A stretch of 64,000 nt of DNA from Flavivirga jejuensis. Lineage in GTDB: Bacteria > Bacteroidota > Bacteroidia > Flavobacteriales > Flavobacteriaceae. The position numbers and the translations under genes are program-made. Within the stretch, counting starts at the first letter, position 1; the number at the start of each line of letters is the position of its first letter. Below the pieces are notes generated by a model that was not told where the DNA came from, ran no database searches, and was given only the letters and a program-made list of their open reading frames with translations. Shown in pieces: positions 7,477-32,788 of the stretch. Where the stretch lies: NCBI RefSeq assembly GCF_030540765.1, contig NZ_JAUOEL010000004.1:310001-374000 (forward strand), written 5' to 3'.

Positions 7477-7608
7477 TTGAAAAAAACGGGAACCAAAAAT
7501 TATCAATTTATGAATATCAGTATTGATTTTTATAGTATTCAGAATAATTGAAATAGAGGTTGCATCGTATTGTTTTATTTTCTTAATTAGTATAAAATGT
7601 TGTGGTAA

Positions 7609-14622: not shown

Positions 14623-14660
14623 TTCTATATTTTTTAATTATTAAAGAACTATAATGTTAG

Positions 14661-17600: not shown

Positions 17601-17924
17601 TCCTAAATAAGAAAAAATGATTACGCTTTCATTTGATGGTACATTAATAGAAAAATTCCCATCAAAATCTGTTACTGTTCCTTTGGAGGTTCCTTTTACA
17701 ATGACGTTTACTCCAGGGACACTCATGTTGTCTTCGGCACTTATAACCTTACCCGAAATGGTTCTATTTTGCTCAATGTCTAAATTTGAAATTGGTTTTT
17801 CGAGATAAGAAATTTCTGTGGTTGCATGTACTTGTGTAAATGTACCACAAAATAGAAAACCTATTATCCAAAATAGACTTGCGAAAAAATTAAGTATTAA
17901 CTTACTGGGACTTAGTTTAATCAT
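14661..17924 (-). CDS. SusC/RagA-family TonB-dependent outer-membrane transporter
   Basis: 1087 residues. After a signal sequence comes a carboxypeptidase-D-like regulatory domain (GKVISAEDNMSVPGVNVIVKG, then GTVTDFDGNFSINVP, residues about 57-130), the linker LDEVVVVAYG, a plug domain (LQGRTPGLVITRNSSRPGDE, IDGVPTINDASFNDMNPNDI, SVYGSRAAGGVILVTTKKGKG) and a large beta-barrel ending in aromatic-rich strands with the C-terminal WALGVKVSL. It imports oligosaccharides with TonB energy. The susD gene follows. The 600-bp divergent space to the GH88 gene is expected to hold promoters for both. Confidence 0.96.
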   Translation of the reverse strand: MIKLSPSKLILNFFASLFWIIGFLFCGTFTQVHATTEISYLEKPISNLDIEQNRTISGKVISAEDNMSVPGVNVIVKGTSKGTVTDFDGNFSINVPSNESVIIFSYLGYVTQEITVGKNNTIHVTLQTDLAALDEVVVVAYGIAKKETLTGSIEQVKAEAFEDLAVGSTALALQGRTPGLVITRNSSRPGDEDINFLVRGVSSINGISPLIVIDGVPTINDASFNDMNPNDIESISVLKGGAASVYGSRAAGGVILVTTKKGKGDVKIEISSILRVGTIGIRPPTPTMQEWGALWLAATSQDETPNFGFWLGTENLERFAAGEEGIYHFTNFLGDVYVSDSNRFDEMFGNSYSNQHNISVSGGSEKSNFRMAAGYDENVGGLKVADDSRDRYNFSLNYGVNVSERLKLSTNISYFHTSFSGPSGGLDREATTIDPPIFASKNQFGQWYANFGGNIAGGRNAVARVIDGGRENNIDKQLRLTTSIEYKLTDNLNITGSYSYSDQDSEDQIYHLTVPTYNWFGDVAPAQINGTSYIQETTDRITYKNYKASLNYSNNIGNHNLSGLLAIEADRNTNKRLRARRNGFVDYGVYDLAIGSEDLAVTTFGGGNTWGFFGYIGRINYDYKGKYLLELQGRRDGSSRFAKGQKWSNYGNVSTGWVLSSENFLKNSNVVSFLKIRGGYGELGSTAGIDEFGYLSTVALNTIPNIDSIKSRITVFGATAAQQGNSSGSNLFSTTTTWERIVSKEIGVDFKLFNNKVFGAIDFFNKKNIGMLIQRQIPATIAPLAPYTNSGTLESKGWEVVLGYANTFGDFNVSVSANMSDSRNKVTSFFSEDNFGGVPVAGLNAADDSEIIEGKPINSFYMWETDGFFANQAEVDTYYSSLKPGGELPSQTSTGALRPGDTRVVDTNKDGTIDSEDLTYQGDALPHHVYGFNFDIKYKSFDFSAFFQGALNHKILRTGFFASPFQQVWQNQSNTWLGRTWTEDNPNAEFPRLTTISPLAAWNYTNKDFMLQNNRYIRLKSLILGYNIKDLKMGNTLINTLRIYFSGNDLFEWSQVKDGWDPESRADTNASAYPFMRTWALGVKVSL

Positions 17925-18529
17925 AAATTTTAATTTAAAAAGATTAGTTTTAATTTGTTAATACAATGTAATTATTAAGAATATAAGTAATAATAAACCT
18001 TCATTCAATAGCTGTAAATTATGGTTCTTTTTGTAAGAAAAAATAAGTTTTAATTGAATGATTTCTATTAAAATGTTATTTAGAGAGTGTTTTTTGGCTC
18101 AATATTATTTTGAAAACCAAAATTTAATGTACATCTATTTAATAGTTTTTGGATAAGATTATATGAGGCTATTAAAAAGATGAAAATACATGTAATGTGT
18201 TTATTTTTAATATATTAGTATGAATATATTATAAAGAATGTGCATTTTTTTTTACCATCTATGAAGGCTTAATATTTTTTTGTATAATTATTCTTATAAA
18301 AATATCTTAATTATTAAGATTCATAAATAAATATTATATTCCATGGAGTTAAAAGATGTGTAATTAGTGAGAATACAATGAAAAAGGATGATAATTTATA
18401 ATTATTGAACGATAATTTATCCTTTATATTCATCATTCTTTATTATACTTGCGATATAATTCACAGGAATTTTCAGAAAGATTTAAAAGGAATAAAGTCC
18501 TTTTTAACCAAAAACATATAACCATAGAC
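17925..18529. other. divergent AT-rich control region between susC and the GH88 gene
   Basis: No gene seen. The stretch is markedly AT-rich, with several T/A runs but no clear palindromic operator that I could pick out. It must contain the susC promoter and the GH88 promoter. Confidence 0.4.
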
Positions 18530-19744
18530 ATGACTAGATCATTATCATTATTAATATCGACCGTTTTTTTAATAGTTGCATGTGCTTCACCCAAAAAGCA
18601 GGAACCAGTATTTAGCCCAACAGAAATGTTGGATTTAAGTGTTTTAAAAACCAAAGAGAACCTTAAAGGAATATCCGATTCAAATAGCTTTCTAAGAAAT
18701 ATTCCGAAAGGGAAATCAGATTGGAAAGTTGTAGGAGTTAAAAATTGGTGTAGTGGTTTTTGGCCAGGTATTTTGTGGTATGCTTATGAGAATTCTGGGG
18801 ATGAAACAATAAAGAAACGTGCCGAAAATTTTACAGCTTCTATAAAAACAATAGCCTACTCGCCAGCAGAGGATCATGATATAGGTTTTATGGTATACTG
18901 TAGTTATGGAAATGGTTATAGATTGACAGGTAACGAAGCATATAAAAAAGTATTACTATCTGCGGCAGATACTTTGGCAACACTTTACAATCCAAAGGTT
19001 GGGTCTATTCTTTCCTGGCCAGTAAAGGTAGAGGAGTATGGTCATAATACGATAATAGATAATATGATGAATTTGGAGTTGCTTTTTTGGGCAGCTAAAA
19101 ATGGAGGTAATAAGCGTTTGTATGATATTGCAGTAAGCCATGCAGAAGTTACTATGAAGAATCTAGTTAGACCAGATGATGCTGTTTTTCATGTAGGAGA
19201 ATTTGACGGTAATACAGGAGCATTTGTTAAAGGGCATACACACCAAGGGTATGCAGATGAATCTATGTGGGCTAGAGGTCAGGCATGGGGCATTTATGGT
19301 TTCGCAATTGCTTATAGAGAAACAAGAAAGCAAGAATTTTTAGATACCTCTATAAAGCTAGCGAATCATTTTTTAAACCGTTTGCCTGAAGATGGTATAC
19401 CGTATTGGGATTTTGATGATCCAAAAATACCAAATGCCCCAAAAGATGCATCAGCTGCAGCTATAACATCTTGTGGGTTGCTAGAATTGACAGGTTTAGT
19501 TAAAGATGAAAAATTGAAAGAAAAATATATAAAAGCAGCAAATAATTTTGTAGAAAAACTATCATCTAAAGATTACTTTAGTGGAGATACAAGTAAGGCT
19601 CTCTTATTACACTCTACAGGAAATCATCCTAAGAATTCAGAAATTGACGTACCAATAATTTATGCAGATTATTACTATATGGAAGCTTTAACGCGATTAA
19701 AAAAGATGGAGGCAGCAAATAATGCCGCACAAACCCAAAAATAA
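18530..19744 (+). CDS. GH88 unsaturated glucuronyl hydrolase (lipoprotein)
   Basis: The start at ATG 18530 gives a 404-residue protein with a clean lipoprotein signal (MTRSLSLLISTVFLIVACAS). The frame is open further upstream (from 18449), but that start would bury the signal. GH88 features are present: NWCSGFWPGILWYAYE, the segment EDHDIGFMVYCSYGNGYRLTG and IIDNMMNLELLFWAAK, holding the two aspartates equivalent to the catalytic/binding pair of the family, plus HTHQGYADESMWARGQAWGIYG and IPYWDFDDP. The family removes the unsaturated uronic acid left by polysaccharide lyases, by hydrating its double bond. No lyase gene is in the window, so the lyase must act elsewhere. Likely periplasmic, part of the divergent SusCD locus. 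Confidence 0.93.
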   Translation: MTRSLSLLISTVFLIVACASPKKQEPVFSPTEMLDLSVLKTKENLKGISDSNSFLRNIPKGKSDWKVVGVKNWCSGFWPGILWYAYENSGDETIKKRAENFTASIKTIAYSPAEDHDIGFMVYCSYGNGYRLTGNEAYKKVLLSAADTLATLYNPKVGSILSWPVKVEEYGHNTIIDNMMNLELLFWAAKNGGNKRLYDIAVSHAEVTMKNLVRPDDAVFHVGEFDGNTGAFVKGHTHQGYADESMWARGQAWGIYGFAIAYRETRKQEFLDTSIKLANHFLNRLPEDGIPYWDFDDPKIPNAPKDASAAAITSCGLLELTGLVKDEKLKEKYIKAANNFVEKLSSKDYFSGDTSKALLLHSTGNHPKNSEIDVPIIYADYYYMEALTRLKKMEAANNAAQTQK

Positions 19745-19752
19745 ATAGTGTT

Positions 19753-19890
19753 ACTAAGGCTTGAAGATCAAACAATAATTAAGACACGAACCAGCCTGCC
19801 GAATGGCAGGTTGCACGAATTTACACGAATAGAATCTCAATGTATTTGAGATCTCTATGTCTACCGTAAACACGAATCAGACTTTCAGTC
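19753..19890 (+). repeat. 138-bp intergenic repeat, first copy
   Basis: Matches 29416-29553 along its whole length. It lies between the GH88 gene and the NO-sensing operon. Confidence 0.75.
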
Positions 19891-20068
19891 AGTTATAACA
19901 CCTATACAGGTTTGTTACTTTTCTTTGGATGAGCAAAGAAATTGAAGATTCATGAATTCCTAATTTATCAAATAAGATTTGTGAACTAAAAGTAATTAAT
20001 AAATATATAAAAGATGCCGGTACACCGTAGCAGATACAGGTAGGATTTCTTAATAGCCTCTCCTTTGC

Positions 20069-20106
20069 CTCACCCAGAACTGCCTTTTTTCACAGTTATG
20101 GGTGAG
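20069..20106. terminator. strong intergenic hairpin (terminator-like)
   Basis: CTCACCCAGAACTG pairs with CAGTTATGGGTGAG with one mismatch around a T-rich loop. It is about 325 bp after the GH88 stop and 310 bp before the next start. A related hairpin (CAGAACT ... AGTTCTG with the same CTGCCTTTTTTT loop) occurs at 34858-34883 after the PagL gene. Confidence 0.5.
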
Positions 20107-20309
20107 ACAAAATAAAAAAATTAGGTTTTTGCCTCTAAAGTCAAAATAAAACTGACGAAATACTACTATAGCTTGTCTAGAATCTGCAAAGGCAAGGATA
20201 ATCAGTTTCAAGATTTTTTTATTTTATGCTGTAAATCTAATACTAAATTTAATAAAGGATAAACTTGTCCTTTTATTAAGAACAGGTTAAAATCTATACA
20301 AAAAAACCA

Positions 20310-20343
20310 TTCGTCGACACTTAACCGTTATTCATCTACACTT
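20310..20343 (+). promoter_or_regulatory. TTCGTCKACACTT motif, two copies, before the NO-sensing operon
   Basis: TTCGTCGACACTT (20310) and TTCATCTACACTT (20331) form a direct repeat with a 21-bp period. The second copy begins 88 bp before the ATG of the first gene. The same motif occurs 87 and 86 bp before the two downstream secreted-protein genes. LytTR regulators commonly bind direct repeats spaced by about two helical turns, so the operon's own LytTR protein is a plausible ligand (inference). Confidence 0.6.
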
Positions 20344-20418
20344 AATTTCAATCTAGCTAAGGGTGGTCATTCATTTTATCTTACTACATTATTTTTACAT
20401 TATAATTAAAGTTTGGAA

Positions 20419-20835
20419 ATGATGAAAAATAATTTAAAAGTACTTCTTATAGAAGATGATATGATTGAAATCATGAAATTTAATAGGGTTGTGGCGTCTT
20501 TAAAACTTCAGCATACTATCATTGAAGCGAACAATGGAGAAGATGCTTTAAAAATTTTACAAAAAAAAGACGAATTACCTGACATAATTTTATTAGATTT
20601 AAACATGCCAAAAATTAATGGCATAGAATTTTTAAATATTCTTAAAAAAGATAACACTTTAAAATATATACCAACTATTATTTTAACAACCTCTAATAAC
20701 CAGAATGATTTATTAGAATGTTATAAAATAGGGATTGCAGGATATGTTTTAAAACCTTTGAAATACGATGATTATGTTTCTAAAATGGAAAAGATATTAG
20801 CGTATTGGAGTATTAACGAGTTAAAACAAATATAA
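20419..20835 (+). CDS. single-domain response regulator (receiver only)
   Basis: About 138 residues comprising only a receiver domain. Numbering from a possible upstream TTG at 20413, the acidic pocket is E14-D15-D16, the phospho-acceptor is D62 (IILLDLNMP), and the switch lysine is K114 (GYVLKPL), as in Rcp1-type regulators that pair with phytochrome-like kinases. I chose ATG 20419 over the TTG because it follows an A/G-rich stretch. It heads the H-NOX/NosP operon, 8 bp before the H-NOX gene. It has no output domain, so it may act by protein contact or as a phosphate sink for the two kinases. Confidence 0.93.
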   Translation: MMKNNLKVLLIEDDMIEIMKFNRVVASLKLQHTIIEANNGEDALKILQKKDELPDIILLDLNMPKINGIEFLNILKKDNTLKYIPTIILTTSNNQNDLLECYKIGIAGYVLKPLKYDDYVSKMEKILAYWSINELKQI

Positions 20836-20843
20836 AATATAAT

Positions 20844-21383
20844 ATGAAAGGTATTGTTTTTACCGAATTTTTAGATTTAGTAGAAGATAAGTTTGGATTA
20901 GAAATGGTTGATGAAATAATAAACAAGTCTAATCTAGAATCTGGTGGTGTTTACACTTCTGTAGGTACCTACAAGTTTTCAGAAATGTTACAATTGCTTA
21001 ATCATTTAAGTACCAATACAGGAATATCTATCGATGATTTACTATTGGTATATGCAGAACATTTTTTTAGTGTTTTAAAAACTAGCTATCCTGAAATCCT
21101 AGAGACCTACAAAGACCCTATAGAAATGATTTCATCTATTGAAAACCATATACATATAGAAGTTAGAAAAATATATCCAGATGCAGAACTACCAACATTT
21201 GAAGTTCTTGAGAAAACAGGCCATTCGATTATAATGATATACAAATCAAGTAGAGCGATGCATCATTTTGGTTTGGGATTAATGAATAAAACATTTGAAC
21301 ATTTTAACACAGCTGCTACGATTGAGTTAGAAAAAATAAAAGAAGACGGTACCGAAGTTAAGTTTATAATTAATAAAAATTAA
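20844..21383 (+). CDS. H-NOX heme-based nitric oxide sensor
   Basis: A 179-residue stand-alone H-NOX (HNOB) domain, the usual size. The proximal heme ligand is H104 in HIEVRKIYPDAELP, and the heme-propionate motif YxSxR is Y133-S135-R137, both offset by exactly +2 from Thermoanaerobacter H-NOX (H102, Y131, S133, R135). By eye the distal tyrosine of oxygen-binding members is replaced by F142, which predicts NO selectivity over O2. The stop codon overlaps the start of a histidine kinase gene (TAATG), the arrangement known for H-NOX/kinase pairs in which NO-bound H-NOX inhibits the kinase. Cytoplasmic, soluble. Confidence 0.93.
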   Translation: MKGIVFTEFLDLVEDKFGLEMVDEIINKSNLESGGVYTSVGTYKFSEMLQLLNHLSTNTGISIDDLLLVYAEHFFSVLKTSYPEILETYKDPIEMISSIENHIHIEVRKIYPDAELPTFEVLEKTGHSIIMIYKSSRAMHHFGLGLMNKTFEHFNTAATIELEKIKEDGTEVKFIINKN

Positions 21384-22972
21384 TGAGTCAAGATAAAATT
21401 GACGTACTACAGCGTGCACTTGCCCGCGAAAAAGCTGCCAGAAAACAGGCGGAAAAAATCCTTGAAGATAAATCTTTAGAGTTATACGATGCTAAAGAAA
21501 AGTTAGAACAATCATATTTAGAGTTGGAAGCATCGTTGAATAAAAAAGACTCGCAATTACAGGGTGTTTTTGAAAACATTGTAGATGCCTATGTTATTAT
21601 GGATCTTTTGGGCAATATTCTTAAAATGAATGAAGCTGCTGTATCTTTGTTAGGTTTTAATCACGCTAAAGAAAATTTCAACCTTATAAAAATGGCAGCC
21701 CCTGAAGAGGTACAGCGTGTTTTAGAATCGTTTAATATTCTTTTTAAAAAGGGGTCACTTACAGATTTTCATTTAAATATTATTACAAGGAAAAACGAAC
21801 CGAAATTAGTACATATTAATGCCAGTATTATTTACGATAATGGAACACCTGTAGCAGCCCAAGGTATTGTTAGAGATATAACATTAGATAATAAATATAA
21901 AAATCGGTTAGAAACAGAGCGCCAAAAGTATAGTAACATTATCGCTAATATGAATTTAGGTTTGGTTGAAACTGGTATTGACGATAAAATATTAATGGTT
22001 AATCAAAGTTTTTCCAAAATGTCTGGATATTCAGAAGAAGAGATAATAGGAAAAACAGGAAAAGAACTATTTATAACAGAAGAAAATGCGGAAATTATTG
22101 AAACTAAAGATTCGAAACGCCATAGAGGTGAAGCGCATTCTTATGAAATAAAGGTTAGAAACAAATTAGGAGAAGACAGGTATTGGTTAGTAAGTGGTGC
22201 TGCAAATTATAATTTAGAAGGAAAGGTTGTAGGTTCTATAGGGGTTCATTTAGATATAACTGGTATAAGAAAATTAGAACATCAAAAAGAAAAATTACTG
22301 AATGATTTATCTAAAAGTAATGAAGAATTAAAAGAATATGCACATGTTGTATCGCACGATTTAAAATCACCTTTACGTAGTATAGATGCTTTAGTTAGTT
22401 GGATTAAAGAAGATAATAAAGGTAAATTAGATCCTACCAGTATTCAGAATTTTGAGTTAATTGAGACGACATTAGAGAAAATGGAACAACTTATATCTGA
22501 TGTGCTAAGTTATTCGAGTATAGGTTCCGAAAAAAATGAGAAAACAGACGTCGATCTGGATAAAGTTGTTAAAGATCTAATTAAGATTCTTTATGTGCCA
22601 GATCATATTTCTATCAATATTGAAAATACGTTACCAACCATTAAAGGAGAACGTATGAAACTACAACAAGTATTTCAAAATTTAATTGGGAATGCTATTA
22701 AATTTATTGATAAAGAAAAAGGCTTCATTACTATCCAGGTTAAATCACTTCGTACACATTATAAGTTCTCTATAGCAGATAATGGCATGGGGATAGAGAA
22801 GCAATTTCATAATAGGATTTTTAAAATATTTCATGCTTTAAATAAAAGTAAAGACTCTACTGGCATTGGATTATCCATAGTAAAAAAGATAATTGATTTG
22901 CATGAAGGAGAAATTTGGTTGGAAAGTAACCCTGGTGAAGGAACTACATTCTTCTTCACTCTTAAAAAATAA
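21383..22972 (+). CDS. H-NOX-associated PAS-PAS sensor histidine kinase
   Basis: 529 residues, no membrane segment. Residues 5-58 form a charged coiled coil (RALAREKAARKQAEKI), then PAS domains at about 57-175 (VFENIVDAYVIMDLLGNIL) and 180-300 (IIANMNLGLVETGI). The HisKA phospho-acceptor is H325 (VVSHDLKSPLR); the ATPase has N437 in the N-box, DNGMG (466-470) and STGIGLSIV (G2). It overlaps the H-NOX stop codon, so the H-NOX is its expected input. There is no attached receiver, so phosphate must go to separate proteins: the receiver at 20419, the Hpt at 25171 or the LytTR regulator at 25501. Its core is closely related to the second kinase at 24109. Confidence 0.95.
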   Translation: MSQDKIDVLQRALAREKAARKQAEKILEDKSLELYDAKEKLEQSYLELEASLNKKDSQLQGVFENIVDAYVIMDLLGNILKMNEAAVSLLGFNHAKENFNLIKMAAPEEVQRVLESFNILFKKGSLTDFHLNIITRKNEPKLVHINASIIYDNGTPVAAQGIVRDITLDNKYKNRLETERQKYSNIIANMNLGLVETGIDDKILMVNQSFSKMSGYSEEEIIGKTGKELFITEENAEIIETKDSKRHRGEAHSYEIKVRNKLGEDRYWLVSGAANYNLEGKVVGSIGVHLDITGIRKLEHQKEKLLNDLSKSNEELKEYAHVVSHDLKSPLRSIDALVSWIKEDNKGKLDPTSIQNFELIETTLEKMEQLISDVLSYSSIGSEKNEKTDVDLDKVVKDLIKILYVPDHISINIENTLPTIKGERMKLQQVFQNLIGNAIKFIDKEKGFITIQVKSLRTHYKFSIADNGMGIEKQFHNRIFKIFHALNKSKDSTGIGLSIVKKIIDLHEGEIWLESNPGEGTTFFFTLKK

Positions 22973-22975
22973 AAG

Positions 22976-24109
22976 ATGAAAACGGTACAATTAAAAAAAC
23001 ACAAAACTGCTGATTGGAACTATTTAACAGAAAATATAACACTAAAAAAACCATTAGTTTTAGTTTTTGGTAATAGGTATATGCTAGAAGACGACACTAT
23101 TTTTGAAGATGTGAAAGCGCTTTATCCAGACGGACATTTAGTGTTTGGTTCTACCAGTGGCGATATAACGTCCAATAGTGTTGATGATGATAGCATTACA
23201 GTTACAGCCATTGAATTTGAAAAAAGTCAGTTTTTAATTAAAACCAGTAATATTTTAAATTCAGATTTAGATAGTTATAAAACAGGAGTCGATTTAGTAA
23301 ATCAGTTTCCAGAAAAAGGATTAAAATACATTTTTGTATTGTCTGAAGGTAGTTTTATTAATGGTAGTGAGTTAACCAAAGGTATGAATGCCTCAATCCA
23401 AAACAATATTTTAATTACAGGCGGACTTTGTGGTGATGCCGCCAGATTTGAAAAAACGGTAGCATCCTATAACGAAAACCCTAAACCAGGAGAAATTGTT
23501 GCCATAGGATTTTATGGTGAGACGTTGGAAGCTTCTTTTTCTATTCATGGTGGTTGGACACCCTTTGGTCCAGAGCGTGTGGTAACAAAATCAGAGTCGA
23601 ATGTCCTTTATGAATTAGACAATCAACCAGCGCTCGATTTATATAAAAAATATTTAGGAGATAAATCTAACGAATTACCAGCCGCCGCCTTATTGTATCC
23701 TCTTAACGTAAAATCCTTAAAAGAAAAACAATCTTTTGTTAGAACTATTTTAAATATTAATGAAAAAGATAATGCCATGATTCTCGCTGGAGATATTCCA
23801 GAAAACTCTAAGGTACAACTCATGATGACCAATGTGGATAATATTGCCAATGCCTCAGAGCGTGCAGCTAAACAAGCATTAGAACTAAGAACCAATACCT
23901 CTCAATTGGCATTATTAGTAAGTTGTATTGGGAGAAAATTGGTTTTAGACCAACGTGTTGAAGAAGAAATTGAAGAAGTTGTTGCGGTTGTTGGACAAGA
24001 CACCACTATTTGTGGCTTTTATTCTTACGGAGAAATTGCACCTTTTCATGGTGAGAATAATTGTCAACTTCATAATCAAACCATGACTATAACGTTAATT
24101 AGCGAATAA
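22976..24109 (+). CDS. FIST-domain protein, NosP-like heme nitric oxide sensor
   Basis: 377 residues comprising the FIST N and C domains from end to end: LVLVFGNRYMLED, YPDGHLVFGSTSGDI, ILITGGLCGDAARF, PGEIVAIGFYG, HGGWTPFGPERVVTKSE in the N half; AAALLYPLN, LAGDIPENSKVQLM, ALLVSCIGRKLVL and ICGFYSYGEIAPF in the C half. Stand-alone FIST proteins next to histidine kinases include NosP, a heme protein that binds NO and controls its partner kinase (NahK). Its stop codon overlaps the start of such a kinase. I cannot name the heme ligand from sequence, so heme binding is an inference from family and context. Confidence 0.88.
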   Translation: MKTVQLKKHKTADWNYLTENITLKKPLVLVFGNRYMLEDDTIFEDVKALYPDGHLVFGSTSGDITSNSVDDDSITVTAIEFEKSQFLIKTSNILNSDLDSYKTGVDLVNQFPEKGLKYIFVLSEGSFINGSELTKGMNASIQNNILITGGLCGDAARFEKTVASYNENPKPGEIVAIGFYGETLEASFSIHGGWTPFGPERVVTKSESNVLYELDNQPALDLYKKYLGDKSNELPAAALLYPLNVKSLKEKQSFVRTILNINEKDNAMILAGDIPENSKVQLMMTNVDNIANASERAAKQALELRTNTSQLALLVSCIGRKLVLDQRVEEEIEEVVAVVGQDTTICGFYSYGEIAPFHGENNCQLHNQTMTITLISE

Positions 24110-25158
24110 TGAATTCATTACTAAAACGTCAATTACGTAAATGTTTTCCAGAAGGATTGACAGGCTCTAAAGATTTGGAGCGATTTATAGATGCTGTAGA
24201 TAGATCGTATCATAATTTTGACGAACAATATGTTATGCAGCAACGGGCTATGGCTATTAGTTCTGATGAGTTGTCTGTTGCAAACGAACAATTAAAACAA
24301 GAAACGAATACGCAACAAGAAGTTATAAATAAATTAAAGCGGGTTATAGAAACACTTAAATTTTATGAACTTCCAAATAATAACAGTCTGGAAAATGTAG
24401 ATTTAGATGGTATAAAATTGATAGATTTTATAGACAATCAAACTAAAGAGATCGTAGAGATGAACAAGCAACGTGAAAAGCTCTTAAATGAGTTAGCGCA
24501 TCAAAATCAGGAGTTAAGTGATTATGCACATATGGTATCTCACGATTTAAAATCCCCGTTAAGAAGCATTGATGCATTAACGTCTTGGTTAAATAGTGAT
24601 TATCACGATAAGCTTGACGATAGTGGTAAGGATAATATAAAACTTATTAGAGATAATGTAGAAAAAATGGATACCCTTATTACGGGTATTTTAGAATATT
24701 CTACCATTGGTAAAAATCAATTAGAAAGCTATGATGTAGATCTCAATAAAATTATAGATAACATTCTGAATGTTATTGAGATACCTAAACATATTTCTAT
24801 AGTGAAAAAAGGAAGCTTACCTGTTTTAATAGGGAATAAGTATAGGTTACAACAACTCTTTCAAAACCTAATCGATAATGCCATAAATAATAATGATAAA
24901 ACATCAGGGCTTATTGAGATTGGTGTAAAAAGCCAGGAAAACTTTTGGGAGTTTTATATAAAGGATAATGGTAAGGGGATTGATGCTCCCTATTTCGATA
25001 AAATTTTTAAAACCTTTCATAAATTAGAGAATAACACCCAATCAACAGGTATTGGACTATCTATAGTTAAGAAAATTATCGACCTGTACGATGGTAAGAT
25101 TTGGTTAACCTCTCAATTAGGTAAAGGAACAACTTTCTATTTCACCATAAAAAAGTAA
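24109..25158 (+). CDS. NosP-associated sensor histidine kinase
   Basis: 349 residues, soluble. The first 60 residues (LLKRQLRKCFPEG, RFIDAVDRSYHNFDEQ) resemble the segment often found in kinases encoded next to FIST proteins, followed by a coiled coil to about 135. The kinase core has H145 (MVSHDLKSPLR), an N-box (FQNLIDNAI), DNGKGID and STGIGLSIVKKI. No PAS or other sensor domain is present, so sensing must be supplied by the overlapping FIST/NosP gene. The region around the histidine (YAHMVSHDLKSPLRSIDAL) is nearly identical to that of the kinase at 21383, which suggests that both feed the same partner. Confidence 0.94.
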   Translation: MNSLLKRQLRKCFPEGLTGSKDLERFIDAVDRSYHNFDEQYVMQQRAMAISSDELSVANEQLKQETNTQQEVINKLKRVIETLKFYELPNNNSLENVDLDGIKLIDFIDNQTKEIVEMNKQREKLLNELAHQNQELSDYAHMVSHDLKSPLRSIDALTSWLNSDYHDKLDDSGKDNIKLIRDNVEKMDTLITGILEYSTIGKNQLESYDVDLNKIIDNILNVIEIPKHISIVKKGSLPVLIGNKYRLQQLFQNLIDNAINNNDKTSGLIEIGVKSQENFWEFYIKDNGKGIDAPYFDKIFKTFHKLENNTQSTGIGLSIVKKIIDLYDGKIWLTSQLGKGTTFYFTIKK

Positions 25159-25170
25159 CTTACACAGCTT

Positions 25171-25491
25171 ATGGAGCAACCTAATTTATCATACATTGAT
25201 ACGCTTTCTGGAGATGATAAAGCCTTTAAAGAAAAGATGATTTCTATTATTAAAGCTGAATTTCCAGAAGAAAAAGCGGTATACTTTAAAAACATTGAAG
25301 CTAAAAACTTTAACGAAGCTTCGGAAAATGTACACAAACTTAAACATAAAATTAGTATTTTAGGGCTTGAAAAGAGTTATGAGGTCGCTACAGATTATGA
25401 AAACAATTTAAAAAACAATCATGATGATGCGGAAAAAGAAACGTTTAAAATCATTCTTGAAAACATGACCAACTTTTTAGATACTTTATAA
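25171..25491 (+). CDS. histidine phosphotransfer (Hpt) protein
   Basis: A 106-residue all-helical protein with the Hpt active site VHKLKHKISILGL, phospho-histidine H55 (H-x-L-K). Stand-alone Hpt proteins shuttle phosphate between receivers and so integrate several kinases. It is 12 bp after the second kinase and 9 bp before the LytTR regulator. This fits a relay in which the two NO-controlled kinases converge, and it parallels the NosP-kinase/Hpt circuits known in proteobacteria. Confidence 0.9.
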   Translation: MEQPNLSYIDTLSGDDKAFKEKMISIIKAEFPEEKAVYFKNIEAKNFNEASENVHKLKHKISILGLEKSYEVATDYENNLKNNHDDAEKETFKIILENMTNFLDTL

Positions 25492-25500
25492 TTTTATTTT

Positions 25501-26220
25501 ATGAATTGTATTATAATTGATGATGAATCCACTGCCAGAGCTATTATAGCACAACTATGTACTAATATTCCAAGTTTAAATGTTTTAGAAGAATTCCAAA
25601 ATGCACTACAAGCTATCAAATATTTAAATCAGAATGATGTAGATCTTATCTTTTTAGATATTCATATGCCAGATTTTACAGGCTTTGATTTTATTCAAAC
25701 ACTAAAAAGTCTGCCTAAAATAATTTTAACGACCTCCGATTCTCAATTTGCTATTGAAGCTTTTGAGTATGATTGTATTGTCGATTATTTAGTAAAACCC
25801 ATTACATTGCCGCGTTTTGAAAAGGCGATTCAAAAAGCAGAATCAACTAAAATAAAAACAGAAGTACCAACAACGGCAATGGCAACAGATGATGTTGAAA
25901 CGTTATCTGGTAATGATTTATATATAAATATAGACAGGCGTTTAATAAAACTAGATATTCCTAGTATTTATCTTATAGAAGCTAAAGGAGATTATATCAA
26001 TGTAAAAACCGAAGACAAAAACTATACAGTACATTCTACATTAAAGAAAATAGAAGATAAATTGCCTAACGATTTATTCTTAAAAGTACATCGCTCATAT
26101 ATTATCAACATTAAAAAAATCATAGATATTGAAGATAATAGTGTATTGATTAAAAAAGATGTAATTCCAGTAAGTCGCTCAAACCGTCCAGAGTTAATGA
26201 AACGATTGAATTTGTTGTAA
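25501..26220 (+). CDS. LytTR-family response regulator
   Basis: 239 residues: receiver 1-120 with D7-D8, phospho-acceptor D53 (LIFLDIHMP) and K99 (DYLVKPI), then a LytTR DNA-binding domain at about 140-239 (LYINIDRRLIKLDIPSIYLIEA, GDYINVKT, LFLKVHRSYIIN, PVSRSNRPEL). This is the only DNA-binding protein of the operon and therefore the likely transcriptional output. A TTCGTCKACACTT motif lies at a fixed distance before this operon and before the next two genes. The receiver lacks any extra sensor, and the Hpt gene lies 9 bp upstream. Confidence 0.95.
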   Translation: MNCIIIDDESTARAIIAQLCTNIPSLNVLEEFQNALQAIKYLNQNDVDLIFLDIHMPDFTGFDFIQTLKSLPKIILTTSDSQFAIEAFEYDCIVDYLVKPITLPRFEKAIQKAESTKIKTEVPTTAMATDDVETLSGNDLYINIDRRLIKLDIPSIYLIEAKGDYINVKTEDKNYTVHSTLKKIEDKLPNDLFLKVHRSYIINIKKIIDIEDNSVLIKKDVIPVSRSNRPELMKRLNLL

Positions 26221-26467
26221 ACTTTAAAACAACAGGGCGTTATTTTTGACTGAACAAAGTATGAGTGACGAGATATCATATAAGAGTTCATTTTATAATG
26301 CGATGTCTCAAAATCGTACCTTATTTCGACATGATTCCTAAATTATAATTCCATGTTCCTAATCCGTTTGTTACAGAGCGAAATATAAGTGATGAGGTGA
26401 CTTGAAACAATACTATAGTGATCCTTTTATAATTGAGTGATTATGCAATTAATATAATGTGTCATTT

Positions 26468-26498
26468 AAAGGCAAATACTTAGGTTTTTGCCTTTTTA
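26468..26498 (+). terminator. terminator of the NO-sensing operon
   Basis: AAAGGCAAA ... TTTTTGCCTTTTT hairpin with a T tail, 250 bp after the LytTR stop codon. The same GGCAAA/TTTGCC design ends the next two genes. Confidence 0.75.
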
Positions 26499-26537
26499 TT
26501 GGTCTCATAATTACCGTTTAACGATTAAAACAATCAA

Positions 26538-26571
26538 TTCGTCGACACTTTTTCTTGCATTCACCGAAAAT
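26538..26571 (+). promoter_or_regulatory. TTCGTCKACACTT motif plus ACCGAAAAT before secreted-protein gene 1
   Basis: TTCGTCGACACTT at 26538, 87 bp before the start codon, then ACCGAAAAT at 26563. Both elements recur before gene 2 with nearly the same spacing (25 and 24 bp from motif start). They lie just upstream of a -7-like box, where an activator would bind. Confidence 0.6.
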
Positions 26572-26624
26572 TAAAGTTTCAAAACATATAATAACTTATA
26601 CTTGTAGTATAAAACAACAAAACC

Positions 26625-29198
26625 ATGAATAAAAACCTACTTTTTGTTTTCGTTTTTGCATTTATTACCCATAGTAATGCACAAGACGAGCCATTTAACT
26701 GCGATTACAATGCTTATTTATTCCAGTATAACGATGTTTATGCTATAGATTTAGCATCTGGAAGTTCATACAATGTGGCAACCGATATTACCGAAGGGAC
26801 AATTAATGCAGCAGCATACAATCCTGCAGACGGATTTATTTGGGGATCGTTAAGTTATCCGTCAAAATCCATAGTGAGAATAGGTAAAGATTTTTCAACA
26901 TTAATTTTTTATGTGGATGAATTATCTACAAGTGGACGTTACATTGGTGATATAAATACCCAAGGTGTTTACTATTTAAAAGGTGGGGGAACAACCTACT
27001 ATACCATAGATGTAAATCCGAATTCTGAAAACTATGGAAATCATATAGCTACAAACGATTTTTCCCAAAGTTTAAGCATCCATGACTGGGCGTTTAATGC
27101 TGTAGATGATAAATTGTATACGGTAGAAAAGAACACGAACAAATTATACCGTATAGACCCAGATACTAATATTATAGAGGACTTAGGAGAAGTGCCTATT
27201 TTATCTGGTTTAAATTATACTTATGGTGCTGTATATTTTGACGCATCTGGTCGTTTTTATGTATCAGCGAATCAAACAGGAACCGTTTATGTGATTCAAA
27301 ATGTACAGGATATAGATGGTACTAATGCTATAGATTCTAATTTATTTGCTTTTGGACCTTCGAGTTCTCAAAATGACGGAGCACGTTGTCCAACGGCACC
27401 AGTACCTCAAGAAGATTGTATTAATGGCATTGATGATGATGGAGATGGCCTTGTAGATTGTGAAGATCCTTCATGCTCTGGGTATGCTTCTTGTCCAGTT
27501 ATAGTAGCACCTATATCTAGTGGTAATGAAGGTGGTTTAGAGAGTAACAACAGACTTTCAGAACTTATTAATAAACGAAACTTTAACAGAGCAAAAAATA
27601 ATTACAAGTTTGATAAAGCATCAGCAAAACGATTAGTAAAATCTGCAAAGTATGGTAAAAAAGCAGGTAAAACAGGATTACAATTATCCGATTTTGTGCC
27701 CATAGAAACGATAAGCGAAGATTATATTATAGAATCGTCTCCAACCGATCTGTTAAACATTACCAATGCTACAGATATATATTCTGTAGACTATATGAAA
27801 GAAGATAAAGCTATAGCAACCATACTGGTTCTTAAAACAGATAGTGGTGTCTATGAACATACTAAATACATTTGTGATAGATTATTAGGAGCAGAATTAC
27901 TTTCGGTATCAACTATTGAAATAAGAGACCACAGTTTTATAAAAGCTTTAATTAGAAATGTTGATGGTTCTTTGGAGTTTGTACTCAGTTTATCGGCAAA
28001 ACCATCTAATGGTGATAATAACTTTGAGGTAGAAAGCCATTGGAATCTAGATAAATATGAAAGTAATGTGCCATTCTATAATTTTCAAATATGGTCTAAT
28101 TCATTAGATGATCTATTACACTTAAGTGAAGAGGTGGTACGATTATTAGACATTCAAAAACCAGTAACAAGTTATAATAGTTCGGCTCCTCCAACAGTAT
28201 TTGTTAAAAAAGGAAAATACCACCATGGTAAGTTGGAATTACAAATTGTAAATAGCAATAAGAGTGAATCTATTAATTTTAATGCAGGCTTAAGAGCTAC
28301 AGAAACTAATGTTTTAGAGAATATAACATCAACATTGAATTTAGATGGTAATTACATTACTAATATAGAAGTAGATACAGGGAGTCTATTTGATATTGGT
28401 TTTAGAATAGGAGACGGAATACAAACACCAGATGACTTGTTTATGTCTGATGGTCCCTGGGGGTATGATGATGCTTCTTCAGGAACAGAGCTTATTACCT
28501 ACGACATAGTACCAAATAAAGAAGCATTTGATGCTGCTGATTTCCCTATAGAGCGTAATATAGAGCTAATAGCGAATACTAATGACTATATAGCGGCTTA
28601 TCGTGCGTTAACACCTAAATATAATCCTGTAGATGTATCCAATTATAATAGCTTACAATTTAAAGCCAAAGGAACAGGAACAATGACTGTAAGATTAATT
28701 AAGGAAAGTATAAGTAATTGGGATGCACAATATAAAACAGACGTTGTGTTAACAGATAAATTACAAGACTATAGTATGCCGTTTTCTGAGTTTACATCTA
28801 CTAACGGTAATAATTTTACGACTCATGACATAACATCTATGATATTTACTATGACATCTGAAACGGGCGAGGAAGAAACTAAAGAAATGACCTTAGAACA
28901 ATTACGTTTTTCAACAAGTAAAGCCGTTTTAGTGGAATCATTAAATGATAAAATAGTTATATCTCCAAATCCTATGATATCTAATGCAACGTTACATTTT
29001 ACAAGTGAAGACTCAGAAAGCGTTGAATTATTGGTTTATAATCAATTAGGAAGCTTGGTGAAAAGGACGACACATGAAACTGTTGAAGGTAAAAATGAAA
29101 TAAAATTGGGCAGAATAGGATTAAACTTAGGAATGTATTTCTGCAGTATAAAGAGTAATACTAAAACTTATGACCCGATAAAATTGCTCATTGAGTAA
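26625..29198 (+). CDS. T9SS-exported multidomain surface protein, copy 1
   Basis: 857 residues. Signal peptide 1-20 (ends SNAQ). Residues 22-260 look like a repeat/propeller domain of the DUF6923 type (YNAYLFQYNDVYAIDLASG, NAAAYNPADGFIWGS). A cysteine-rich acidic module follows (DCINGIDDDGDGLVDCEDPSC), a calcium-binding-like motif found in many secreted proteins. A middle region of unknown type comes next, then a beta-sandwich resembling a carbohydrate-binding module (about 640-770; LQFKAKGTGTMTVRL). It ends with a type A T9SS sorting domain (VISPNPMISNATLHF to IKLLIE). A tandem paralogue lies 500 bp downstream. Shared upstream motif with the NO operon suggests control by the LytTR regulator. 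Function unknown; a matrix or adhesion role is a guess. Confidence 0.88.
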   Translation: MNKNLLFVFVFAFITHSNAQDEPFNCDYNAYLFQYNDVYAIDLASGSSYNVATDITEGTINAAAYNPADGFIWGSLSYPSKSIVRIGKDFSTLIFYVDELSTSGRYIGDINTQGVYYLKGGGTTYYTIDVNPNSENYGNHIATNDFSQSLSIHDWAFNAVDDKLYTVEKNTNKLYRIDPDTNIIEDLGEVPILSGLNYTYGAVYFDASGRFYVSANQTGTVYVIQNVQDIDGTNAIDSNLFAFGPSSSQNDGARCPTAPVPQEDCINGIDDDGDGLVDCEDPSCSGYASCPVIVAPISSGNEGGLESNNRLSELINKRNFNRAKNNYKFDKASAKRLVKSAKYGKKAGKTGLQLSDFVPIETISEDYIIESSPTDLLNITNATDIYSVDYMKEDKAIATILVLKTDSGVYEHTKYICDRLLGAELLSVSTIEIRDHSFIKALIRNVDGSLEFVLSLSAKPSNGDNNFEVESHWNLDKYESNVPFYNFQIWSNSLDDLLHLSEEVVRLLDIQKPVTSYNSSAPPTVFVKKGKYHHGKLELQIVNSNKSESINFNAGLRATETNVLENITSTLNLDGNYITNIEVDTGSLFDIGFRIGDGIQTPDDLFMSDGPWGYDDASSGTELITYDIVPNKEAFDAADFPIERNIELIANTNDYIAAYRALTPKYNPVDVSNYNSLQFKAKGTGTMTVRLIKESISNWDAQYKTDVVLTDKLQDYSMPFSEFTSTNGNNFTTHDITSMIFTMTSETGEEETKEMTLEQLRFSTSKAVLVESLNDKIVISPNPMISNATLHFTSEDSESVELLVYNQLGSLVKRTTHETVEGKNEIKLGRIGLNLGMYFCSIKSNTKTYDPIKLLIE

Positions 29199-29221
29199 CA
29201 TTGACAATTATTTTTAGACCT

Positions 29222-29254
29222 AAAAGGCAAAAGCATTATGTTTTTGCCTTTTTT
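29222..29254 (+). terminator. terminator of secreted-protein gene 1
   Basis: AAAAGGCAAAAGC pairs with GTTTTTGCCTTTT, followed by T residues, 24 bp after the stop codon. Confidence 0.8.
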
Positions 29255-29415
29255 ATTGATCTCGAATGACGTTAAAAAGATGTTTTAGTGTACTTCTTTT
29301 TCAATCTTTAAAAATTTTTTGATACGAGCCAGCCTGCTAGTTGCTAAGGTGTACCCACATCTTTTTTAAATTATTTTCCCTATAGAACTTTAATCTATAT
29401 AAACTACGACTGCAA

Positions 29416-29553
29416 ACTAAGGCTTGAGTATCAAACGATAATTAAGACACGAACCAGCCTGCCGAATGGCAGGTTGCACAAATTTATACGAATAGAAACT
29501 CAATGTATTTGAGATTTCTATGTCTACCATAAACACGAAGCAGACTTTCAGTC
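29416..29553 (+). repeat. 138-bp intergenic repeat, second copy
   Basis: Nearly identical to 19753-19890 from ACTAAGGCTTGA to CAGACTTTCAGTC, with no net length change. Internal hairpins: CCTGCC-GAAT-GGCAGG and the CTCAATGTATTTGAG palindrome. No coding frame. Diverged relatives sit near 5.6, 32.4 and 40.5 kb. Confidence 0.75.
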
Positions 29554-29624
29554 TAACAAAGCAAACCTGTAGACTTCCTGTCCATTCTTTAGGTGAAAAA
29601 TAACTAATCTAGGTAATACCTCCA

Positions 29625-29657
29625 TTCGTCTACACTTAATTTTCATCTACCGAAAAT
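29625..29657 (+). promoter_or_regulatory. TTCGTCKACACTT motif plus ACCGAAAAT before secreted-protein gene 2
   Basis: TTCGTCTACACTT at 29625 is 86 bp before the start codon; ACCGAAAAT follows at 29649. The 28 bases from ATTCGTC align without gaps to the second repeat before the NO operon (20330 onward). Confidence 0.6.
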
Positions 29658-29710
29658 AAAAATATAACCCCTTATAGTCATATAACTTTAGAGTATTAAA
29701 TACAACTATT

Positions 29711-32290
29711 ATGAAAAAAATACTACTATTACTCGTACTTATCTACACGAATGCCTATACACAAGATATTCCATTCAATTGTGATTATAATGCTTACTTA
29801 TTTCAATATAACGACGTGTATGCTATAGATTTAGCTTCGGGGAGTTCATATGCCGTAGCCACCGATGTAACCGAAGGAACTATTAACGCTGCTGCCTATA
29901 ATCCAGCAGATGGATTTATCTGGGGCTCATTAAGTTTTCCATCAAAATCTATAGTTAGAATAGGTAAAAACTTTTCAACGCTTATTTTTTATGTTGATGA
30001 GTTACCTACTAGCGGACGTTATGTAGGTGATGTAAGTGCCGAAGGTGTTTATTACTTAAAAGGAGGAGGAACGCCATATTATGCCATAGATTTAAATCCA
30101 GAATCTGATAATTATGGAAATTATATAGCAACTAAGAATTTATCACAAAATATAAGCATTCACGACTGGGCATTTAATTCAGTAGATGGTAAATTATATA
30201 CCGTAGAAAAGAAAACAAATATTTTATACCGTATAGATGCAGAAACAGGTAGTATAGAAAATATGGGTGAAGTCCCTATCCTTTCTGGTTTAAACTATAC
30301 CTATGGTGCCGTTTATTTTGATGCTTCTGGTCGTTTTTATGTGTCAGCTAATCAAACGGGGACCATATATGTGATTCAAAATGTTCAAGATTTAAATGGT
30401 ACAAATGCTATGGACTCAAATCTTTTTGCGTTCGGACCATCAAGTTCACAAAATGATGGAGCACGTTGTCCAACAGCTCCAGTACCACAAGAAGATTGTA
30501 CCAATGGTATTGATGATGATGGCGACGGATTGATAGATTGTGAAGATCCTTCATGTTCTGGTTATGCAGCGTGTCCTGTTATAGCAGCACCAACATCTAG
30601 TGCTAATGCAGGAGGATTAGAAAGTAACAACAGACTATCCGAGCAAATTAGTAAACGAAACTTTAATAGAGCAAAAGCAAGTTATAAGTTTGATAAAAAC
30701 ACGGCGAAACGTTTTTCGAAATCTGCCAAATATGGAAAGAAAACAGCAAAAGGAAGTTTACAATTAAGCGATTTTATTCCTTTTGAAACCATAGGAGAAG
30801 ATGGGGTTATAGAATCATCACCAACAGATCTGTTAAGCATAACCAATGCTACAAATGTATATTCGGTAGATTATATGAAACAAGGTGAAGCAGTCGCTTC
30901 CATACTATTGTTAAAAACAGAAAAAGGGGTTTACGAGCATACAAAATACATCTGTGATCGTTTATTAGGTGCAGAATTAATATCCGTGTCAACGATAGAA
31001 ATACGAGAACAACAATTCATAAAAGCACTTATAAAAAATGTTGATGGCTCCTTAGAGTTTGTATTAAGCTTGTCGGCAAAATCAGTAAATAATGATACAG
31101 ATTTTTCAATAGAAAGCCACTGGAATTTAGATAAGTATGAAACTAATGTGCCTTTTTATAACTTTCAAATATGGTCTAATTCTTTAGATGATTTATTAAG
31201 GCTAGGGGAAGAGGTTGTTAGACTGTTAGAAGTTCAAAAACCAATTTCAGAGTATAACAATTCAGCACCACCATCAGTATTTGTTAGAAAAGGAAAATAC
31301 ATTAATGGAAAACTTGATTTAGAAATTGTAAATACTAATAGAACAGCAACTGTAAATTTTGATGGTGGTTTAAGAGTCACAGAAACAAACACCGTTGAAT
31401 ATGTAGCCTCTTCTTTAGATTTAGATGGAAACTACATTACTAATATAGAACTTGATGCAGGAAATCTGTTTGATATTGGTTTTAGAATAGGGGATGGTGT
31501 AGCAACTCCAGACGATTTGTTTATGTCTGATGGTCCTTGGGGTTATGATGATGCAGCGCCTAGTACCACCGTTAATAATTATGAAGTTGAAGTTAATAAA
31601 GAACAGTTTAATGATGATGAATTCCCTATTGAGAGAAACATCACATTAAAAGCGAACACCAGCGAGTATGTTGCAGCATACAGAGCTTTAACACCAAAAT
31701 TTAACCCTATAGACCTATCTGGTTATAATAGCTTTCAATTAAAAGCCAAAGGAACAGGTACGATGATTATAAGATTAGTTAAACAAAGTGTGAGTAATTG
31801 GGAATCTCAATACAAGGCTGTGATAACATTAACAGATAATTTACAAGATTACAGTATCCCATTTTCAGAATTTAAATCGATTACAGATGAAGCTATGGCA
31901 GTAAATGATGTAACATCTGTCGTGTTTACGATGCTATCTGAAAGTGGCGAAGAGGAAACTAAAGAAATGACCTTAGAGCAATTACGCTTCTCGGTAAGTA
32001 ATACATTGTCAGTTGCAACTTTAAACGCAGACGATTCATTACAAATTACAGCCATACCAAACCCGATGAAATCTAATACTGAAATTCATTTTACAGCAGA
32101 AGCTTCAGAAGCAGTAGAACTGTTAATGTATAATCAAATAGGGCATTTGGTAAAGCAAATTGACTTTCAAACTGTAAAAGGTCAAAACAACATTAGAATA
32201 AAGAGAGACCATCTAAGTTCTGGAATGTATTTCTGTAAAGTGAAAAGCAAGTATAGAAACTATAAAACCATTAAATTACTACTAGAATAA
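29711..32290 (+). CDS. T9SS-exported multidomain surface protein, copy 2
   Basis: 859 residues, colinear with the protein at 26625 and by eye about three quarters identical, with the same order: signal peptide (ends NAYTQ), DUF6923-like repeat domain, CTNGIDDDGDGLIDC acidic cysteine module, middle region, carbohydrate-binding-like sandwich, and a T9SS type A sorting domain (ITAIPNPMKSNTEIHF to IKLLLE). The most divergent stretch is around residues 560-600 and the C-terminus. The pair arose by tandem duplication that included the upstream control region and the terminator. Function unknown; regulation as for copy 1. Confidence 0.88.
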   Translation: MKKILLLLVLIYTNAYTQDIPFNCDYNAYLFQYNDVYAIDLASGSSYAVATDVTEGTINAAAYNPADGFIWGSLSFPSKSIVRIGKNFSTLIFYVDELPTSGRYVGDVSAEGVYYLKGGGTPYYAIDLNPESDNYGNYIATKNLSQNISIHDWAFNSVDGKLYTVEKKTNILYRIDAETGSIENMGEVPILSGLNYTYGAVYFDASGRFYVSANQTGTIYVIQNVQDLNGTNAMDSNLFAFGPSSSQNDGARCPTAPVPQEDCTNGIDDDGDGLIDCEDPSCSGYAACPVIAAPTSSANAGGLESNNRLSEQISKRNFNRAKASYKFDKNTAKRFSKSAKYGKKTAKGSLQLSDFIPFETIGEDGVIESSPTDLLSITNATNVYSVDYMKQGEAVASILLLKTEKGVYEHTKYICDRLLGAELISVSTIEIREQQFIKALIKNVDGSLEFVLSLSAKSVNNDTDFSIESHWNLDKYETNVPFYNFQIWSNSLDDLLRLGEEVVRLLEVQKPISEYNNSAPPSVFVRKGKYINGKLDLEIVNTNRTATVNFDGGLRVTETNTVEYVASSLDLDGNYITNIELDAGNLFDIGFRIGDGVATPDDLFMSDGPWGYDDAAPSTTVNNYEVEVNKEQFNDDEFPIERNITLKANTSEYVAAYRALTPKFNPIDLSGYNSFQLKAKGTGTMIIRLVKQSVSNWESQYKAVITLTDNLQDYSIPFSEFKSITDEAMAVNDVTSVVFTMLSESGEEETKEMTLEQLRFSVSNTLSVATLNADDSLQITAIPNPMKSNTEIHFTAEASEAVELLMYNQIGHLVKQIDFQTVKGQNNIRIKRDHLSSGMYFCKVKSKYRNYKTIKLLLE

Positions 32291-32316
32291 CTAGTGGCTA
32301 CTCTAATTTGTTTTTG

Positions 32317-32350
32317 AAAAGGCAAAAGACGTAAGTTTTTTTGCCTTTTT
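32317..32350 (+). terminator. terminator of secreted-protein gene 2
   Basis: AAAAGGCAAAA pairs with TTTTTTTGCCTTTTT, 26 bp after the stop codon. Third member of the same terminator family. Confidence 0.8.
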
Positions 32351-32365
32351 ATATTTTAAAATGTT

Positions 32366-32440
32366 TAGACAGACAGAAAGTCTATTTCGTGAAACCAGCC
32401 AGGAGGCTGGTTCGTGTCAAAAGTTTTAGAAGCTGGAAAC
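32366..32440 (-). repeat. dispersed intergenic repeat, inverted diverged copy
   Basis: Read on the minus strand it gives CCAGCTTCTAAAACTTTTGACACGAACCAGCC in parts (CTTCTAAAA, ACACGAACCAGCC, AGACTTTCTGTCTG), the same order of blocks as the copies near 40.45 and 29.4 kb. Confidence 0.5.
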
Positions 32441-32524
32441 GTAATGTGTTAAATCATATAGTTTTATTTACATTTTGCACTAATAAATCAAAGGAGAAAT
32501 TTTATTACTTTAGTGGCATACAGG

Positions 32525-32706: not shown

Positions 32707-32788
32707 GCATACAGGAAATATAGCACGAACTTGATGTTTTTTTACAAATCATTAATCACAAATAAAAAAAACAACATTAGATTTTAAA

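Follow-up and report, generated by a model that had tools for sequence, protein, structure and literature searches.

One operon for H-NOX and FIST in Flavivirga jejuensis: a predicted shared phosphorelay with exchangeable sensor modules and a probable local output

Flavivirga jejuensis possesses an operon in which two candidate sensors, an H-NOX heme protein and a FIST-domain protein, are encoded together with two histidine kinases and the parts of a phosphorelay. It lies in a stretch of 64,000 nucleotides (nt) analysed here as a whole (the window; contig NZ_JAUOEL010000004.1, positions 310,001–374,000, assembly GCF_030540765.1) in a genome of 6.02 Mb and 33 contigs; coordinates are positions in this window unless another locus is named. 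Seven plus-strand genes follow one another head to tail between 20419 and 26220, with intergenic gaps of −1 to +12 nt (Table 1). By Pfam they encode, in order, Response_reg (RR1), HNOB (H-NOX), two PAS domains with HisKA and HATPase (HK1), FIST with FIST_C, HisKA with HATPase (HK2), Hpt, and Response_reg with LytTR. The original prediction, made from the letters alone, had described this receiver/H-NOX/kinase/FIST/kinase/Hpt/LytTR cluster with its tight spacing and LytTR output, and had noted that neither kinase carries a receiver of its own; Pfam bears out each of these points. The kinase N-termini, the promoter repeat and the two genes downstream, all treated below, are additions to that description. 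Hpt is the sole operon protein below its Pfam cut-off (20.6 vs. 24.6 bits). Phospho-sites are intact in the alignments: the aspartate of RR1 in 97/97 sequences, the histidine of Hpt in 94/94 and the aspartate of LytTR in 95/95. A kinase, a receiver, an Hpt protein and an output receiver with intact phospho-sites make up the parts list of a His-Asp-His-Asp phosphorelay. GGDEF, EAL and HD-GYP domains were not found in the operon proteins by Pfam.

Table 1. Features of the operon and its surroundings, with positions in the window.
Feature	Coordinates	Strand	Basis or remark
Operator 1 (predicted): tandem direct repeat, 21-nt period, 112 nt before operon	20307..20345	+	Repeat conservation
RR1, lone receiver domain	20419..20835	+	Pfam Response_reg 78 bits; second ATG at 20422
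H-NOX heme sensor	20844..21383	+	Pfam HNOB 137.5 bits; PDB 6bdd E=6e-94
HK1, PAS-PAS-HisKA-HATPase kinase	21383..22972	+	Pfam; one-nt overlap with H-NOX gene
HK1 N-terminal 62-residue coil, proposed H-NOX coupling module	21383..21568	+	Co-occurrence with H-NOX
FIST_N + FIST_C protein	22976..24109	+	Pfam 145.1 and 127.1 bits; NosP model 64.5 of 450 bits
HK2, HisKA-HATPase kinase, no recognised sensor domain	24109..25158	+	Pfam
HK2 N-terminal 112 residues, proposed FIST coupling module	24109..24444	+	Co-occurrence with FIST genes
Hpt phosphotransfer protein	25171..25491	+	Pfam Hpt 20.6 bits, cut-off 24.6
LytTR response regulator	25501..26220	+	Pfam Response_reg + LytTR
Operator 2 (predicted), 90 nt before D1	26535..26573	+	One of 3 half-sites in window and genome; 24/39 positions of longer site
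D1, DUF6923 protein with type IX sorting tail, predicted secreted and a predicted target	26625..29198	+	Pfam
Operator 3 (predicted), 89 nt before D2	29622..29660	+	One of 3 half-sites in window and genome
D2, D1 paralogue (73%); predicted target	29711..32290	+	Pfam

The genome contains one H-NOX gene and two FIST matches. The H-NOX protein scores far above the HNOB cut-off of 25.5 bits, retains the proximal heme histidine and the Y-x-S-x-R motif, and contains no cysteine. The residues named earlier (H104, Y133, S135, R137 and F142, the last at the putative position of the tyrosine of O2 binders) are all present, and the first four are conserved in 110, 110, 108 and 107 of 110 aligned H-NOX proteins, respectively. 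The protein is 82% identical to the H-NOX of Kordia algicida (tblastn), and its best solved relatives are PDB 6bdd and 6bde. According to the available text of PMC7356049, 6BDD is Ka H-NOX, Ka standing for Kordia algicida; over its first 60 residues, the H-NOX encoded at the Kordia locus (L081) is the same as 6bdd. In both PDB entries the molecule is named as an aldolase, and these H-NOX structures would therefore be overlooked in a search by name. Overall, the window H-NOX appears to be a normal member of its family, with nitric oxide (NO) as its likely ligand.

The FIST protein contains FIST_N and FIST_C in one chain. Against the NCBIfam NosP equivalog model it reaches 64.5 bits, the cut-off being 450; seven other FIST proteins, including the second FIST of the same genome, score 34.6–95.3 bits, a set that holds no above-cut-off FIST as a positive control. 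Membership of NosP is rejected on these scores, and the earlier statement that the operon joins both known families of NO sensors is not supported. The window protein is better described as a FIST-family relative beside a NosK-like kinase, putative as NosP. The adjoining HK2 (349 residues) has no Pfam domain before HisKA, which begins at residue 137. A c-di-GMP (cyclic di-GMP) partner regulator, a common although not universal trait of NosP, was not found in the operon by Pfam. The predicted structure (mean pLDDT 77) has as its best fold matches structures with the eukaryotic F-box protein FBXO22 (TM-score 0.44–0.52 over the model), which informs on the fold modelled for FIST and not on its ligand; by sequence, the best PDB match has an E-value of 0.32. 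Residues C317 and H366 are invariant in 19/19 FIST proteins; the accessible papers yielded no known heme ligand to set beside them. The second FIST (L142, 5699–8568, contig C1) is accompanied by a hybrid PAS kinase whose start resembles the HK2 N-terminus.

HK1 and HK2 are each other's closest relatives among the kinases compared. A genome search with the HK2 core returned 27 matches including HK2; HK1 follows with 252.8 bits, and none of the remaining 25 exceeds 75.7 bits. The two share 58% identity in the DHp domain and 51% in the catalytic domain; for 20 of the 25 others the corresponding identities to HK1 are 14–24% and 22–34%. The operon pair is thus more alike in DHp than in the catalytic domain, the reverse of what is seen between HK1 and each of these 20. 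The claim that the kinases are almost identical around the phospho-histidine holds insofar as they are much alike there; it does not extend to near-identity overall. Among 64 kinase cores placed in a tree, those of the operon separate from eight other kinases of the genome with 100/98 support. Recent gene conversion between the kinases was rejected, since HK1 and HK2 from one genome do not come out as a pair in the tree. With related, receiver-free kinases of this kind, the proposal that both feed one Hpt/receiver set is well supported by sequence. The phosphate order HK–RR1–Hpt–LytTR is the one suggested by the parts present. Two related loci, L113 (2712–4070, minus strand; with a GAF domain) and L115 (7920–9212, plus strand), encode a third kinase with this type of core between HK2 and Hpt; both group with the operon kinases in the tree, as does one flanking kinase of L083.

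To place the operon among its relatives, GTDB genomes were searched for H-NOX relatives, and of the 194 obtained the top 80 serve as the closest loci; a phylum sample comprised 394 genomes, assigned to Bacteroidota by named relatives. RR1 and H-NOX are present in 80/80 closest loci, and Hpt and LytTR in 79/80, L062 reaching its contig end before them. FIST lies in the operon of 56/80 (51 complete, one at a contig end, four with a divergent FIST). FIST and HK2 behave as an optional cassette between HK1 and Hpt and are gained or lost together: both are present in 51 loci and neither in 24, four combine a divergent FIST with an altered HK2 N-terminus, and one is at a contig end. In the phylum sample 27 genomes carry H-NOX and 89 carry FIST; 18 carry both, against 6.1 expected (hypergeometric P 4e-7, not corrected for kinship of the genomes), and FIST lies 1.7–2.8 kb downstream of 11/30 H-NOX genes. 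These searches rule out that the arrangement is unique to this genome. The adjacency for which a search of Bacteroidetes genomes had been proposed recurs, and its supposed rarity does not stand: co-location is common, and a 2022 review (PMC8738867, as far as its text was accessible) has already reported that the genes next to 'group 1' H-NOX include FIST, so the adjacency alone has been published before. According to the accessible part of PMC7108781, which we take as the source of the review, this group includes Cellulophaga and Runella. No description of the operon itself was found in the accessible literature searched on H-NOX, NosP, FIST, Kordia, HNOBA and LytTR.

Each sensor appears to travel with a particular kinase N-terminus. 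The HK1 coil is present in 80/80 closest loci and in 0/6 operons with another H-NOX class. Among the 30 H-NOX genes of the phylum sample, 13 precede an HK1-type coil, 10 an HNOBA domain and none both. A model of the coil gives 15 matches in the 394 genomes; 13 lie directly after an H-NOX gene, all at E < 1e-13, and the other two have E-values of 2e-4 and 8e-4. As 11 of these 13 are training rows, the informative point is the absence of strong matches elsewhere. The model of the HK2 N-terminus gives 46 matches in the same sample, 42 of them in the gene next after FIST and starting 482–539 nt past the end of the FIST_N match; on contigs outside the training set, 32/36 matches lie just downstream of a FIST gene. 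Four matches do not follow FIST, one of these at E 1e-16. In a separate test the model fits the kinase beside the second FIST of the genome (E 3e-10); it also fits a FIST-linked Azospirillum kinase (E 5e-10) and does not fit the kinase beside a Nostoc FIST.

The HNOBA-pairing class of H-NOX is that known from soluble guanylyl cyclase. It occupies the H-NOX slot in six relatives (L113–L116, L133 and L137), the window H-NOX belonging to a different class. None of the six has the HK1 coil, and in each the kinase right after H-NOX carries HNOBA above the family cut-off (55.9 bits in L114). These H-NOX proteins are 26–28% identical to the window H-NOX in five loci; that of L133 has no BLAST match to it at the threshold and was found through the L114 protein. 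RR1 of the same loci remains 69–73% identical to the window RR1, and LytTR 65–72% in the five where it lies in line. Cross-class pairs (n = 435) show a relay identity of 0.49–0.70 and an H-NOX identity of only 0.19–0.31, whereas same-class pairs (n = 825) in the same relay range have an H-NOX identity of at least 0.44, L137 and L138 being left out of both sets. On the FIST side, L005, L032, L033 and L038 encode a divergent FIST (22–25% identical) with an HK2 core that is 64–71% identical; the first 112 residues of HK2 have no match in these four loci, and in the tree the cores beside divergent FIST belong to one group with HK2 cores from close relatives (95/92). Taken together, these patterns support a natural domain swap in which the sensor would be exchanged together with the kinase N-terminus. 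HNOBA was also met without an adjacent H-NOX match in 5/15 matches to the start of the profile. Three loci, L148 (G324), L149 (G202) and L150 (G154), contain an HNOBA-type operon with RR1 followed by the HNOBA kinase, and no H-NOX gene was found there. Another genome (G343) has two RR1 and other-class H-NOX starts, L137 and L138, 57 kb apart; each adjoins an inverted receiver–kinase–Hpt–LytTR set, and the L137 kinase has a GAF domain.

The operon promoter contains a repeat with a 21-nt period, of consensus CCATTCGTCGACACTTAA then ATTCATCGACACTTAA, located 89–127 nt before RR1. Its first repeat matches at least 13/18 positions upstream of RR1 in 78/81 loci, the best shuffled matches reaching 9–12, and it is still recognisable in several of the more distant loci. 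The Operator 1 repeat has a single match in the 6.0-Mb genome at no more than 3 mismatches (control 0). The half-site occurs three times in the window, against 0.03 expected, and genome-wide (≤1 mismatch) only in the three operators (reversed control 0); since its pattern was written to cover these three, the result lies in the absence of further sites. A wide regulon is accordingly rejected at the operator stringency used. A looser pattern finds 9 sites in the genome and its reversed control 2; the nine include operators 1 and 3, and one of the other seven, in the window (54084–54117, 3 mismatches), lies between two genes and is near background. In LytTR-regulated promoters, direct repeats stand in tandem at a spacing of about two helical turns. 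The period at the operon promoter agrees with this spacing, and before D1 and D2 the second half of the site is less well preserved.

A D gene follows the operon, not always as the next gene, in 67/78 loci with at least 1300 nt downstream (window included). At least 24/39 positions of a site modelled on the window's own site before D2 are matched within 160 nt upstream of 54/68 D genes, compared with 1/68 shuffled upstream regions, and 40 of the 54 sites begin 86–95 nt before D. The genome has two full-length D copies, both located here, and one weak partial match; the structure model of D2 has a pTM of 0.34. A promoter/terminator scan yielded 40 promoter-like sites vs. 38.9 in shuffles, a tRNA scan found none, and Rfam gave no match over 19700–33000. 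The repeats would be bound by LytTR, and the output is probably local, namely the operon itself and the two adjacent type IX-secreted D proteins.

We propose, with moderate confidence, a local multi-input phosphorelay. H-NOX, presumably binding heme and NO, would control HK1 through the N-terminal coil, and FIST would control HK2 through the N-terminal 112 residues. Both kinases, having the same kind of DHp, would pass phosphate to one set, RR1, Hpt and then LytTR, and LytTR would bind the repeats before the operon, D1 and D2, so that the output would be the amount made of the relay itself and of two surface proteins exported by type IX secretion. What can be read directly from sequence is the gene order, the intact phospho-sites, the kinship of the kinases, the co-occurrence of sensor class with kinase N-terminus and the conserved repeats; NO as the H-NOX ligand, the order RR1–Hpt–LytTR, the binding of LytTR to the repeats, the sign of the response and the signal sensed by FIST are inferences. 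The circuit drawn earlier is likely right in outline, its rarity and a FIST protein taken as a known NO sensor being the parts that fall away. Several observations weigh against our proposal, which is itself a prediction from sequence. The operon repeat is at 12/18 in 3/81 loci, no better than shuffles, and is weak in distant loci (e.g., 9/18 in L128). D is absent downstream in 11/78 loci, only 31–34% identical in 5 of the other 67, and found in only 3/35 further phylum loci, once partially. Seven of the 30 H-NOX genes precede neither the coil nor HNOBA. With E-values of 2.6e-10 to 3e-4, the HK2 N-terminus is also picked up by the model of the HK1 coil, hence part of this coil may be a general signalling coil; the tree leaves the HNOBA-type kinase core ambiguous between HK1 and HK2, so that 'same kinase, new head' rests on gene order. 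Finally, FIST is missing from 24/80 operons.

This last absence also fits a variant that we consider a real possibility without favouring it, in which the relay is shared and FIST is not an NO sensor: it would respond to another ligand or to free heme, and the switch would integrate NO with a second signal. The NosP scores of the window protein and its seven relatives, all far below the cut-off, point the same way, as does the breadth of the FIST family, given that the best fold matches of the model are FBXO22 structures. The layout, however, is NosP-like: in the available text of PMC12570481, NosP/NosK likewise pair a FIST protein with a kinase having about 130 residues and no sensor domain before DHp, and the HisKA of HK2 starts at a comparable distance. 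Moreover, a FIST protein sharing its relay with an NO sensor suggests related signals. It seems quite improbable that the operon holds two separate two-component systems, one kinase serving RR1 or unlinked partners and the other LytTR. G088 (L122, L152) and G312 (L123, L153) do have RR1–H-NOX–HK1 and a two-gene FIST–HK2 unit apart from each other, with no Hpt or LytTR found in the stretch examined at either; yet close DHp likeness exists only between HK1 and HK2, and the tree sets both apart from the rest of the genome's kinases sampled. An unlikely, if slightly less remote, alternative is that another regulator binds the repeats and the operon LytTR acts elsewhere. The repeats are putatively LytTR-like, and their assignment to LytTR is a prediction. 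Against the alternative stands a repeat kept at nearly all operon promoters and not found elsewhere in the genome at the stringency used: the simplest candidate for a regulator confined to these sites is LytTR, whose gene lies between them.

Two gene sets are located upstream. The first (6055–12560) encodes an MFS transporter, a molybdopterin oxidoreductase fused to NADH-oxidoreductase parts, and a rubredoxin/nitrite-reductase-like protein (Pfam), and we read it as a putative nitrate assimilation set; a relative of its large enzyme is present in the stretches of 24/80 related loci. The second, just upstream of the operon (12847–19744), contains a SusD gene, a SusC-like TonB-receptor gene and a GH88 gene; no GH88 relative was found in the related loci searched.

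What this analysis adds is the modular exchange, the two candidate coupling modules and a predicted regulon of local extent. We tentatively speculate, at just short of even chances, that the operon belongs to a flavobacterial plug-in hub for gas signalling. It would combine a fixed relay (receiver, Hpt, LytTR and one DHp type) with exchangeable cassettes of sensor and kinase N-terminus, namely H-NOX with the coil, other-class H-NOX with HNOBA, FIST with its N-terminus, divergent FIST with another N-terminus, and a GAF kinase; it would use no c-di-GMP and govern little beyond itself and the adjacent type IX-secreted surface proteins. In this marine family, H-NOX and FIST share an operon whose predicted transcriptional output, three promoters, lends itself to a single test. 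The joint exchange of sensor and kinase N-terminus points to the parts by which H-NOX and FIST may control kinases, and a solved H-NOX structure already exists for one such operon (Kordia, 6bdd).

As far as the accessible literature was searched, published H-NOX and NosP signalling concerns Proteobacteria, with c-di-GMP or quorum-sensing outputs. The Kordia algicida H-NOX gene lies in an operon of the same type, with FIST, HK2, Hpt and LytTR; the one paper found covers, in its available text, H-NOX alone (PMC7356049). In Shewanella oneidensis, H-NOX controls a kinase feeding regulators, HnoXKBD (accessible part of PMC8846402), and a title cited in PMC12570481 states that NosP modulates this network. 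Common to HnoX-HnoK-HnoB/D and the window operon is the H-NOX-controlled kinase that feeds regulators. Unlike in Shewanella, H-NOX and FIST are here encoded in the same operon as Hpt, a LytTR regulator and a stand-alone receiver; the Shewanella output is c-di-GMP, and the window operon has no c-di-GMP gene. In the NosP-NosK/NahK-NosR/NarR systems of Burkholderia and Legionella, too, FIST neighbours a kinase whose N-terminus has an unknown fold (PMC12570481 and PMC11237717, available parts); the window system differs by a FIST far under the NosP cut-off and by LytTR as its predicted output. In Vibrio, per the accessible text of PMC6769237, HqsK/H-NOX and VpsS/NosP each consist of a sensor protein controlling a sensor-domain-free kinase that feeds the Hpt protein LuxU, and NosP of V. 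cholerae acts on VpsS/LuxU, so that a c-di-GMP partner is not universal for NosP. These circuits differ in their hybrid kinases, one sensor per described circuit and a quorum-sensing output; their logic, from sensor through sensor-domain-free kinase to Hpt, is the same as that predicted for the window operon.

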